Positions 622-41,105 of a DNA stretch of 44,384 nucleotides are shown here, piece by piece (within the stretch, counting starts at the first letter, position 1; each line of letters starts with the position of its first letter). Origin of the DNA: a virus; IMG/VR virus record IMGVR_UViG_3300020459_000018, positions 1-44,384 of that record. The stretch is one strand, 5' to 3'. The notes below the pieces were generated by a model. The model ran no database searches. It saw nothing but the letters and a program-made list of their open reading frames with translations, and was not told where the DNA came from. Position numbers and translations under genes: made by a program.

Positions 622-1046
622 GCTTTCCACCTCTCTAATATCCATGAACTACTATTCTTCTTATCCTCACCACCAACACCAAACTTAAACTCAACTCTCT
701 TATCATCTTTATATCTCTCATATTCAGGAGTATTCACACTACCTCTATCACCACCATTACAGAATAGTACATTATCATATACTTGTAAAGCAATGCTAAT
801 AGCATCACAGGCACTATCATCCTTATCAATGAACTCAATGGCAAGGTCTACACATTTAAGTTCTTTAATGATACTCATCCTTTCACCAACATCCATAAAA
901 GGTTTACCCTTCTTTCTGGTTAACCAATCGTCAGAGTTCACACCCACACATAATGAATGTCCAAACTCTCTTGCTGCTTTAAAGTAAGCAATATGACCAC
1001 TATGTAAGGGATCAAATCCACCTGTAACTAATGTAACTGTTGTCAT
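618..1046 (-). CDS. Cytidylyltransferase-like nucleotidyltransferase
   Basis: A 142-aa protein beginning MTTVTLVTGGFDPLHSGH. The GGFDPLHSGH segment (residues 9-18) contains the HxGH nucleotide-binding signature of the nucleotidyltransferase superfamily (glycerol-3-phosphate cytidylyltransferase, RfaE/HldE C-terminal domain, phosphopantetheine adenylyltransferase). A second element near the C-terminus, NSSSWILERW, matches the usual ISSTxI phosphate-binding position. The length equals a single minimal catalytic domain. These enzymes transfer CMP or AMP to a phosphorylated sugar or alcohol; the substrate here is unknown. It overlaps the helicase stop upstream and the methyltransferase start downstream, each by ATGA. 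Such genes are common in T4-like cyanophages; a role in sugar activation or nucleotide metabolism is inference. Confidence 0.82.
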   Translation of the reverse strand: MTTVTLVTGGFDPLHSGHIAYFKAAREFGHSLCVGVNSDDWLTRKKGKPFMDVGERMSIIKELKCVDLAIEFIDKDDSACDAISIALQVYDNVLFCNGGDRGSVNTPEYERYKDDKRVEFKFGVGGEDKKNSSSWILERWKA

Positions 1047-2221
1047 TTTGTAACCACCGATGTTGCTGCCTCACCTTTGTTGAAGATAGTATCAACAACT
1101 GCTTCTACTTTACGTGCAGTAGAGATACCGACCTTAGAATAAACTGGAACGCAAACTAAACCGTATGCCTTATCAGTTGCCCCCTTGCGGATCACTCTAC
1201 CGATTGTTTGACTAATACCAATGTAATCCATAGAACGCAAGAATAGAACTGCCTCAAGACCATTTACATTGATACCCTCAGATAGGATGCTGTGATGTAG
1301 AACTACAAACTTAGTATAATCATCCTTGCCCCATGTATTTAATACCTCAAAGAACTTGTCTCTCTTAACTTTCTTACCATTGATAACAGCACCAGTCTTA
1401 GCAGTAATATACATCCAATTATAACCACGTTCTCTCAACTGAACACAGAAGTCAGTTTGAGATACTAGGTTTGTAATCTGCTTAGTTGACTTAGCACAGA
1501 TAAGAACCTTGTCTTTCTCTAAGTTATCAATAGAATCAATCATCTGCTCACAATCTTTATCAGCAACCAACTCATGCTTGTCTAACAATCTTGATTCATA
1601 TACTTCTACTTTTGGTGGTAGAATGTAACCTTGCTCTACCAACTTAGGTGCTGGAACCTGACAGATTACATTACCGAATATATCACTATCATTCATACCT
1701 GCCTTAAATGGTGTAAGACTGTGCTTTGGTGTAGCAGTAAAGAAGTATGAACGATCAGCATCCATTGAGAAGTGTTCTACGGGACCAATGAAGTTTCTCT
1801 GAACACTGTTGTGTGCTTCATCAAAGTAAACTACATCAACTACAATATCACTCTCTTGTATTCTATGTAATGAATGGTATGTTGTAAAGATTAACTGATT
1901 AGACTCATAGCATAGGAAGTTATGGTATCTAATGTCATTAACTTTGGTTGAAGAGTAATGCTCTGTCTCACCACTGTGAACATGCATAACTCTAACATCG
2001 TTGAACTCTCCTGTTTCCAAGAACTCAGAACATAGTTGCTCTGCTAACAGGATGCGTGGAGCGACTACGACAATGGTTGCAACCTCTTGTGTACGGAATA
2101 CTGTTTTAGCATCCTCTATCATACACATGGTCTTACCACCGCCAGTAGGCACAATTACTTGACCCTTTGGATTGTTTGCCATTGCATCCAGAGCATCAAT
2201 TTGGTGTGGACGTAAAGGCAT
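1043..2221 (-). CDS. uvsW: SF2 DNA/RNA helicase, UvsW-like (short form)
   Basis: A 392-aa superfamily 2 helicase. Visible motifs in order: LRPHQIDAL at 3-11, Walker A PTGGGKT at 25-31, Walker B DEAH at 134-137, motif III TAT at 162-164, motif V around SEGINVNGLEA at 314-324, and motif VI QTIGRVIR at 338-345 with both arginines. This is a complete two-RecA-lobe engine of the ResIII/UvsW type. T4 UvsW is about 500 aa, so this one lacks the extra N-terminal domain. In T4, UvsW unwinds R-loops and branched DNA and helps switch replication from origin-driven to recombination-driven. It is the first gene of the cassette, behind the extended -10 element at 2243-2251. It could instead be a generic phage DEAD-like helicase; the neighbouring methyltransferase is not enough to call a restriction system. 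Confidence 0.85.
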   Translation of the reverse strand: MPLRPHQIDALDAMANNPKGQVIVPTGGGKTMCMIEDAKTVFRTQEVATIVVVAPRILLAEQLCSEFLETGEFNDVRVMHVHSGETEHYSSTKVNDIRYHNFLCYESNQLIFTTYHSLHRIQESDIVVDVVYFDEAHNSVQRNFIGPVEHFSMDADRSYFFTATPKHSLTPFKAGMNDSDIFGNVICQVPAPKLVEQGYILPPKVEVYESRLLDKHELVADKDCEQMIDSIDNLEKDKVLICAKSTKQITNLVSQTDFCVQLRERGYNWMYITAKTGAVINGKKVKRDKFFEVLNTWGKDDYTKFVVLHHSILSEGINVNGLEAVLFLRSMDYIGISQTIGRVIRKGATDKAYGLVCVPVYSKVGISTARKVEAVVDTIFNKGEAATSVVTK

Positions 2222-2242: not shown

Positions 2243-2251
2243 ATTATAGCA
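2243..2251 (-). promoter_or_regulatory. Extended -10 promoter for the helicase cassette
   Basis: On the minus strand the sequence reads TGCTATAAT, a perfect sigma70 -10 hexamer with the TGn extension. No good -35 hexamer lies 17 bp upstream (TCATAC). It sits 22 bases before the helicase ATG and immediately after the U-tract of the terminator at 2253-2277. This is where an early or middle transcript for the helicase, nucleotidyltransferase and methyltransferase would start. Confidence 0.6.
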
Positions 2252-2252
2252 T

Positions 2253-2277
2253 AAAAAAGACCCCTGTATGAGGTCTT
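2253..2277 (-). terminator. Rho-independent terminator
   Basis: On the minus strand AAGACC (2277-2272) pairs with GGTCTT (2262-2257), with a loop of about nine bases, and the 3' arm runs into six T residues. It separates the late structural unit and the candidate small RNA upstream from the helicase promoter directly downstream. Confidence 0.75.
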
Positions 2278-2302
2278 GTGACACTTTCGCCACTGGTTGT
2301 CT
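2253..2302 (-). ncRNA. Candidate small RNA (~50 nt) with own promoter and terminator
   Basis: A sigma70-like promoter at 2309-2337 predicts a start near 2302. The RNA would begin AAGACAACCA, fold the hairpin GUGGC-GAAAGU-GUCAC (about 2280-2295; five pairs including one G-U) and end in the terminator hairpin and U-tract at 2253-2277. There is no open reading frame of note inside. The promoter-hairpin-terminator layout without a gene is what a small non-coding RNA gene looks like. Function is unknown. It might instead be only the 3' trailer of the protease transcript, the promoter match being chance in AT-rich DNA. Confidence 0.45.
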
Positions 2303-2308
2303 TAAAGA

Positions 2309-2337
2309 ATTATAATCTTTGCCTTAAACCACTACAA
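2309..2337 (-). promoter_or_regulatory. Sigma70-like promoter before the candidate small RNA
   Basis: The minus strand reads TTGTAG (2337-2332), a 17-bp spacer, then a perfect TATAAT (2314-2309). The -35 matches the consensus at three of six bases (TTG). The spacing is ideal. No coding sequence starts downstream before the terminator at 2253-2277. Confidence 0.5.
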
Positions 2338-2360
2338 ACATAGTTATAAGATTTCATATT

Positions 2361-4034
2361 TTAAGAAGTTTTTGTTACCAATGAAGAACTTCTAGGATAT
2401 TTAACTCCATTAATAGTAGGATTGCGATTATTCTGGGTAATAGATGGATAAGCAACCCCACTCTCAGGTCGTTTCTTTACATAGAATAACCATCTGTTAG
2501 GAGAATTAGCCAAACTCTCATAAGGGGATTGAACAGGATTTGATGCACCTGCATCTGCTACATTTGCTTTAGAATTTTCTACGAGATGTTGTAAAACATC
2601 TGCATTTCTTAAATTTGGTTCTTGCTCTGCTAAACATGCAATATAACCTGTAACCTGTGGACTTGCCATACTTGTTCCACTAATTGATGCAATTCTATAA
2701 TTACTATCTCTAGGATCAGTAGCATTAGGAGAATAAGGAGTTGCATAAGGATCTTGTGCTGTTCCCATAGCAGATATAATGTTAGAACCAGCAGACCATA
2801 CATCAGTTCTTTCATCAAAATTACTAAAACCTGACTTATATTCAGCAACTTTATTGCCCACAGATCCAACACATATTACACCAGTAGCAGCAGCAGGTGT
2901 TGATCCTCTTGTATGATATTTATTACCAGTAGTAGTAAAATAATTATTATAATCTTGTCCACTAGAAATATCCATTGGCCAATAAGAATTACCAGCAGCA
3001 CTTATAACCACAACACCATCTGCAATAGCATCTGCAACGTCAGCATCAACCGACGCTACTCTAACTGGTGTTCTATAAAGATAAACTCCATATAAACAAG
3101 GACATCCATTTGCCTCTAAAATTGCTTGTCTTTCAGAAGTTGATCCAGTTACAGAGGTAGTTGTTCCTCTATAAGTTACACTGTTAACATTACTAATATT
3201 ATAAGTACCTTGATTATATCCCCAACTATGATTTGTAATTGTAGGATTTCTTCTACCAGTTGCAGGGTTTATATCTTTATTTTTATGAAAATGTCTCAAA
3301 TAATCCCATAACATATTTGTCCACGTACTTACTCCATTACCACCACCAGCACTACTCGAAAATTCCATATTATAGATATTAGCATCTCTCGCCCATCCTT
3401 GTGTATTTCCAGCTACAGTTCCAGCAACATGAGTACCATGAGAACTTGTTCCAGCAGAATAATCATAAGTTGCATTACTACTATATCCTAATGCAGAACT
3501 ATATTGAAACCAATTAAAATTTACAAATCTACTTCCTCCTGTTCCATCTGCATTTACCGCAAATTCAGGATGATTTGGAGTAATATGCCTATCAACAATT
3601 ACAACATCAACATTCTTACCAGAACTCGTAGTCTTAATTGTTGCATTATGAGAAGATGTATTATCATTACCCCAATTTGCAACACTAGCACCATTTATAG
3701 TCCTAAAAAGACCCCAATTTTTATCTGTGGATGAAATTGAAGAACTACTTTTTTGGAAATCAGCAGTTTGATCCCAAAAAGGAACAGGTTCTATACCTAG
3801 TTTATGTGGTGGTTCTTCAACTGCCAATACCCTAGAATCTTTTGATAATTCTAGTGCTTCTGCCTCTGTCAGATCATAATGAGTATTCCTACTAATTGTT
3901 CTTCTACAACAACAATTACATGGTCGAGATGGAATATCTTCATTTTCAGCACTAGATCCTTCCATCTGTGTATAAAAATCATCGAGATCGTTATGATTTT
4001 TGAGAGTAACAATATACTCCTTAGTTGCTGCCAT
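2361..4034 (-). CDS. Subtilisin-like serine protease (S8 family)
   Basis: A 557-aa protein with a full S8 catalytic set: Asp148 in VVIVDRHI, His199 in SSHGTHVAGT, oxyanion Asn349 in SAAGN and the nucleophile Ser455 in GTSMASP. Residues 5-75 (EYIVTLKN through SRVLAVEE) resemble an I9-type inhibitory prodomain, suggesting synthesis as a zymogen. No signal peptide is visible, so it probably acts in the infected cell or on the virion. The prodomain region contains a cysteine cluster, CNCCCRR, at 39-45. The ATG follows directly on the stop of the 746-aa fibre (TAAATG), and it is the last gene of the adhesion block. Possible jobs, inferred from context: maturing tail fibres, or a virion-borne protease that digests host surface protein on adsorption. 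The family call is secure; the role is not. Confidence 0.93.
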   Translation of the reverse strand: MAATKEYIVTLKNHNDLDDFYTQMEGSSAENEDIPSRPCNCCCRRTISRNTHYDLTEAEALELSKDSRVLAVEEPPHKLGIEPVPFWDQTADFQKSSSSISSTDKNWGLFRTINGASVANWGNDNTSSHNATIKTTSSGKNVDVVIVDRHITPNHPEFAVNADGTGGSRFVNFNWFQYSSALGYSSNATYDYSAGTSSHGTHVAGTVAGNTQGWARDANIYNMEFSSSAGGGNGVSTWTNMLWDYLRHFHKNKDINPATGRRNPTITNHSWGYNQGTYNISNVNSVTYRGTTTSVTGSTSERQAILEANGCPCLYGVYLYRTPVRVASVDADVADAIADGVVVISAAGNSYWPMDISSGQDYNNYFTTTGNKYHTRGSTPAAATGVICVGSVGNKVAEYKSGFSNFDERTDVWSAGSNIISAMGTAQDPYATPYSPNATDPRDSNYRIASISGTSMASPQVTGYIACLAEQEPNLRNADVLQHLVENSKANVADAGASNPVQSPYESLANSPNRWLFYVKKRPESGVAYPSITQNNRNPTINGVKYPRSSSLVTKTS

Positions 4035-40496: not shown

Positions 40497-41105
40497 TTAA
40501 CTTCTTGTTACAGTGTATCTATCATAATTAAAACTAACTGTAACTTTCATTAAATCTGCTGTTCCATATGTAACAGGTAGAGATGTAATTGATTTAGGAA
40601 AAGCATTCTTAAATTCATACATTAAAGTTCTTTCAATGTTCTTTTCAAATTTAGTAATTGTCATTGTATTGCATTTATAATCATCTGGATATTTAAATCT
40701 TCTATAAAATGCCTTTTGATCAGGATCAACATCTGCACCACTAGAAATATAATCCATCCATCCTTCAAAAATACTTAGAGATGTATAGTCCTCATCCACA
40801 TAAAAAGTAAAATCAATATCAGTATATAAACGAGTATGGGCAAATTCCTGAGGAACACCCATAAAATTATCCTTTACTTCACCAGTTGCAAATGCACTAG
40901 CAGGTAATGATGCATCAGAGCAAAGAATCCCCAAATCTCTAGATAAGTAATTTCTAGCATTATCAATTCCAAGTCTTTGAAGATAATTCATTACCGTCTG
41001 ATTAAGATTTGAAAAATGAACTTGATATTGATTTGTTAACGACAGCTTGCCAAGTTTCTCCTTGACTTCTGACATCGTTATTCTTTGTACTATACCCTTT
41101 GCCAC
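40497..41105 (-). CDS. Tail-tube-fold protein, candidate tube initiator (gp54/gp19-like)
   Basis: A 202-aa protein. It can start at GTG 41105 (MAKGIVQRITMSEVKEKLGK, AAGG eight bases upstream) or at the internal ATG ten codons later (MSEVKEKLGK). Segments NQYQVHFSNLNQ, CSDASLPASAFATGEVKDNF, DIDFTFYVDEDYTSLSIFEG and TVSFNYDRYTVTR follow the layout of T4 tube-type proteins (gp19, gp48, gp54): the substrate-loop region followed by the beta-rich core. It lies next to gp26 and divergent from gp4 and gp48. Length is nearer to gp19 than to gp54 (320 aa), so it may be a shortened tube initiator or another tube-like ring protein. A late promoter CTAAATA lies 31 bases upstream. Confidence 0.65.
   Translation of the reverse strand: MAKGIVQRITMSEVKEKLGKLSLTNQYQVHFSNLNQTVMNYLQRLGIDNARNYLSRDLGILCSDASLPASAFATGEVKDNFMGVPQEFAHTRLYTDIDFTFYVDEDYTSLSIFEGWMDYISSGADVDPDQKAFYRRFKYPDDYKCNTMTITKFEKNIERTLMYEFKNAFPKSITSLPVTYGTADLMKVTVSFNYDRYTVTRS

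Follow-up and report, generated by a model that had tools for sequence, protein, structure and literature searches.

The stretch of DNA analyzed here (the window: all 44,384 nucleotides of the IMG/VR record IMGVR_UViG_3300020459_000018) comes from a P-SSM2-like marine T4-like phage (Kyanoviridae) and contains a short gap at which the late structural block meets the early helicase cassette. The upstream neighbors of the gap code for tail proteins and a subtilase (Peptidase_S8; 2361..4034, minus strand), the latter closing the late block; downstream lies the gene for a ResIII/DEAD family helicase (1043..2221, minus strand), whose relative in P-SSM2 is T4-GC 36 and whose relatives in the phage collection all come from cyanophages and related marine viruses. 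Read along the minus strand, the gap runs from the protease stop codon at 2361 through a promoter-like element (P1), an inverted repeat, an intrinsic terminator and a second promoter element (P2) to the helicase ATG at 2221. P1 (TATAACTATGTTTGTAG...TATAAT; 2309..2348, minus strand), which directly follows the protease gene and starts about 12 nt past its stop codon, comprises a -35-like TTGTAG (2337-2332), a 17-nt spacer and a -10 TATAAT (2314-2309). A transcript starting, as predicted, about 7 nt after this TATAAT and ending at the terminator would be about 50 nt long (2253..2302, minus strand). The inverted repeat is a 24-bp dyad (ACAACCAGTGGCGAAAGTGTCACA; 2277..2300, minus strand) that includes the five-pair hairpin GTGGC-GAAAGT-GTCAC (2293-2278), and the terminator (2253..2277, minus strand) consists of an 8-pair stem (2277-2257) with a 5-nt loop and a T-run extending to 2253. 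The original prediction, which had read these parts as a small RNA gene, located the promoter, hairpin and terminator correctly; its remark that no open reading frame fits is also acceptable, as only frames of 20-25 codons touch the gap, the one on the minus strand being a 20-codon GTG frame that runs through the terminator. It missed P2, the extended -10 element TGCTATAAT (2243..2251, minus strand) just downstream, in which the extended -10 TGC precedes TATAAT (2248-2243). P2 lies past the terminator and ahead of the helicase gene that it is predicted to serve; no -35 match was found for it.

Individually, such parts prove nothing, since the window is AT-rich and its lone matches to promoters and terminators are about as numerous as chance would give (93 promoter-like sites versus 94 in shuffles, and 10 terminators versus 7.8); hence, conservation must decide. 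In this regard, the suggestion in the original prediction of similar gaps in other marine T4-like phages was borne out: the exact 19-mer CCAGTGGCGAAAGTGTCAC occurs in five IMG/VR contigs (L001, L003-L006; the prefix L denotes contigs and loci of our collection) and in MH319755, each time in the corresponding gap. A sixth IMG/VR match (L002) proved unrelated. Matches of the 16-mer GTGGCGAAAGTGTCAC in viral contigs are mostly to unrelated coding or repeat sequence, and we accordingly used aligned helicase gaps instead of short exact matches. Arrays of AGTGGCGAAAGTGTCAC-like repeats are also present in unrelated viral contigs (L014 5355-5573, L025 6163-6381 and L021 3810), with a period of 45 nt in L014 and L025; no connection between these and the cyanophage dyad was seen.

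Comparison of the regions upstream of 80 relatives of the helicase revealed that the dyad, hereafter the box, stops 27-30 nt short of the -10 in 72 of the 77 non-redundant gaps, the other five being visible variants. Three kinds of locus share the block (C)CAGT-N6-ACTGKCACA, its distance from TATAAT hardly varying (28-29 nt): those with P1 and the terminator, as in the window; those with the terminator only, as in P-SSM2; and those with neither (e.g., L106 and L108-L112), in which the stop codon of the upstream gene falls inside the block. About 24 distinct boxes were recovered with P1 and about 35 without it, about 15 of the latter also without the terminator, in an automatic split that misassigns a few loci (L077 and L083 have P1; L086 and L107 are without it at that place). 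The box is thus kept independently of P1, and the terminator is itself conserved. Conservation outside the terminator, which the original prediction had set as its own test, is present, but the downstream promoter accounts for it.

The box is not confined to the helicase gene. An alignment of 45 sites gave the 24-bp dyad consensus TGTGMCASTT-N4-AASTGKCACA, which recurs in several copies per genome in the early regions of P-SSM2, S-SSM7, P-TIM40 and Syn9, and in Syn9 variants of it precede the helicase gene as well as several of its neighbors. Its halves are 64% complementary at length 24, as against 23% in shuffled controls, and among lengths from 18 to 26 the signal appears at 24 only. The pattern GKCACA-N27-30-TATRAT is present in 19 of 20 phage records, reaching 7 to 14 copies in several complete genomes versus 0-2 for a reversed-pattern control; likewise, in the P-SSM2 early region ten box and -10 pairs are spaced at 28-30 nt, versus five at all other distances up to 79 nt. 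When P-SSM2, P-TIM40, Syn9 and the window itself were left out of its training, a matrix found 41, 28 and 27 sites in the three genomes, respectively; shuffles gave 7.7, 8.0 and 2.7 (sites on either strand being counted, so that symmetric ones enter twice), and the strong sites cluster in their early regions. The same matrix has three matches in the window, and only the box at 2300-2277 (score 16.8) is followed by a -10 at a distance of 28 nt. Its left half-site is weak, with the outer bases ACAA, not TGTG. The window's box nonetheless combines what marks the early promoters of the family, namely a 24-bp dyad and a -10 at 28 nt (28-30 nt in the family), and it lies directly upstream of, and on the same strand as, the helicase, a putative early gene with its ATG at 2221. 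As the spacing is kept without P1 and the terminator, and as many other early genes have copies of the element upstream, the hairpin sequence is best read as a promoter box. We also observed a cluster of strong boxes on both strands of a gap-rich region of P-SSM2 (66336-66614, within L165), including two with a minus-strand -10 opposite to the neighboring genes, which might give rise to antisense or divergent early transcripts.

P1 has a distribution of its own. A profile search recovered about 41 distinct copies with the consensus TATACATACCTTTGTATGGTTTGTA...CTATAATTTTTTAA, typically soon after a stop codon and ahead of differing genes; most copies that have a -10 are followed by a terminator, and the predicted RNAs are mostly 28-58 nt long. 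P-SSM2 has a single copy (40757-40817, corresponding to L165 4758-4818) between PSSM2_037 and PSSM2_038, matching the profile with an E-value of 7.6e-13, the next match being at 0.07. The profile search did not detect P1 in Syn9 or P-TIM40. In P-SSM2, L069, L105 and L120, the terminator follows immediately after P1 without a box, the predicted RNAs of P-SSM2, L120 and L069 being 32 nt long, with little beyond the terminator; in L086, L091 and L098, the RNA body is different and a box lies downstream of the terminator. Given these differing or absent bodies, P1 and its terminator are, on the evidence of sequence comparison, conserved as a putative transcription unit, although the RNA body is not. 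P1 was also considered as a T4-type late promoter; this was rejected, for it has TATAACTA and TATAAT, not a TATAAATA-type -10. Separately, NATAAATA late-promoter-like motifs lie 20-35 nt before structural genes in the window (6930, 6305, 20712, 34833 and 40487, minus strand). An imperfect inverted repeat covers the -35 region of P1 (window 2348-2309; P-SSM2 40757-40817), and its arms change together from locus to locus (CATAC-CTTT-GTATG, CTAAC-TCT-GTTAG and CTAT-GTTT-GTAG); it could serve as an operator or, in read-through transcripts, form an RNA hairpin. A small ORF of about 40 codons, with the start MKLKKPLxHxRLHQ, is seen downstream of P1 in L048 (2251-2420), L034 (2295-2430) and L067 (532-680), with P1 on one side of it and the helicase box on the other in L034 and L048.

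A short transcript from P1 is plausible, and several roles can be envisaged for it or its promoter. P1 might be a relic or an incidental promoter, with only P2 and the terminator, which would end late read-through, being of consequence. This reading, which we consider tenable but doubtful, gains from P1 being absent from the Syn9 and P-TIM40 search results and from L033, L034, L056 and L067, where the upstream half of P1 is kept, the TATAAT is gone and the sequence runs into a small ORF; it sits poorly with how strongly TATACATACCTTTGTATGGTTTGTA and the -10 are conserved among divergent loci with different downstream genes. Alternatively, P1 and the terminator may act as a transcription insulator or switch, P1 firing in one phase until a protein on the box shuts it and turns on P2. 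We regard this as rather unlikely: the predicted P1 start does fall at the left box edge in most P1-bearing helicase loci, but in P-SSM2, L105, L120 and L069 the unit stands without the box. A related conjecture, to which we give little credence, is that the single-copy unit of P-SSM2-like phages yields an RNA of approximately 30-55 nt whose synthesis, not sequence, is the function, either as a switch together with the box or as a replication primer.

The free-standing small RNA gene of the original prediction, in which P1 would make an RNA of about 50 nt that targets phage or host RNA in trans through its hairpin and terminator, now appears very unlikely. The part of it that stands is the conserved succession of promoter-like element and terminator, found in about 41 distinct copies in similar genomic positions with predicted RNAs of about 28-58 nt; the part that falls is the RNA gene with a functional hairpin. 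The RNA from 2306 to 2245 does fold as proposed (-16.3 kcal/mol, z = -2.45, with 4 of 200 shuffles as good), its stability being owed mostly to the terminator. However, the five-pair hairpin does not hold up as an RNA feature: it is fully paired in only 3 of 24 P1-bearing relatives and in none of 35 without P1, and across the 24 distinct P1-type transcripts the GUGGC/GUCAC stem shows no covariation and no double changes, with 67% of cells paired, equal to shuffles. In the CCAGT/ACTGG register of the dyad, 88% of cells are paired in the same transcripts and three are changed on both sides, a weak covariation whose score is reached by 10 of 500 shuffles. This favors an RNA in some measure, but it is no proof of one, because the symmetry of a DNA site produces an identical signal, and loci that lack a P1 to transcribe the dyad have it as well. 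Perfect 5-pair dyad stems are present in 14 of 24 P1-bearing loci versus 5 of 35 others, the loci being closely related and the comparison uncorrected for kinship; some RNA-level selection could account for this excess, to which we give no weight. RNAalifold predicted no consensus pair in the transcript alignment, not even in the terminator, probably because stem lengths vary. The window has no Rfam match at the gathering threshold, and a sensitive search of the gap returned only weak Phe_leader and Atu_C8 matches far below it. Together with the lack of a conserved RNA body noted above, these results leave a functional structured small RNA unsupported. Finally, that P1 marks a replication origin with the short transcript as primer is scarcely credible: P-SSM2 does have a single copy at a block boundary with the helicase gene nearby, but its cumulative GC skew climbs steadily and does not turn at 40.8 kb.

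Hence, we propose that the inverted repeat at 2300-2277 is very probably a DNA site, one copy of the dyad box that marks Kyanoviridae early promoters, placed ahead of P2, with the terminator serving as an insulator and P1 as a separate element. A 24-bp dyad at a fixed spacing predicts a dimeric regulator; a dimeric protein of the host or the phage would most likely bind the box and help RNA polymerase to initiate the helicase mRNA from the extended -10 TGCTATAAT, which lies 28 nt beyond the box. The terminator, which fills the spacer between the box and the -10, would halt transcription that enters from the late block or starts at P1. Any transcript begun at P1 would be only about 50 nt long, and its start site would be expected to lie under a protein bound to the box. 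The analysis removes a false small-RNA candidate and describes precisely the box at early promoters of marine T4-like phages, namely a 24-bp dyad spaced at a fixed distance from the -10. The site is ordinary promoter anatomy.

Several known systems offer points of comparison. Noncoding RNAs reported from T4-like cyanophages include CFrI, PhotoRC-II, wcaG, manA and glnA (PMC9964418, PMC9602691); unlike these, the gap has neither an Rfam match nor a conserved RNA body. The cyanobacterial Pho and NtcA consensus sequences quoted in PMC3037559 bear no resemblance to the dyad. A closer parallel to P2 is provided by the middle promoters of T4, which combine a MotA box with a -10, in that an upstream box replaces the -35 ahead of TATAAT. 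The short MotA box has its centre near -30, whereas the P2 box is a 24-bp dyad extending roughly from -65 to -42. In 2016, Doron et al. reportedly described a novel element controlling the early genes of the T4-like cyanophages Syn9 and P-TIM40. The dyad box is probably this element, to judge by its description. Both lie upstream of early genes of T4-like cyanophages, and the dyad box is present in P-TIM40 and in Syn9, including ahead of its helicase gene.
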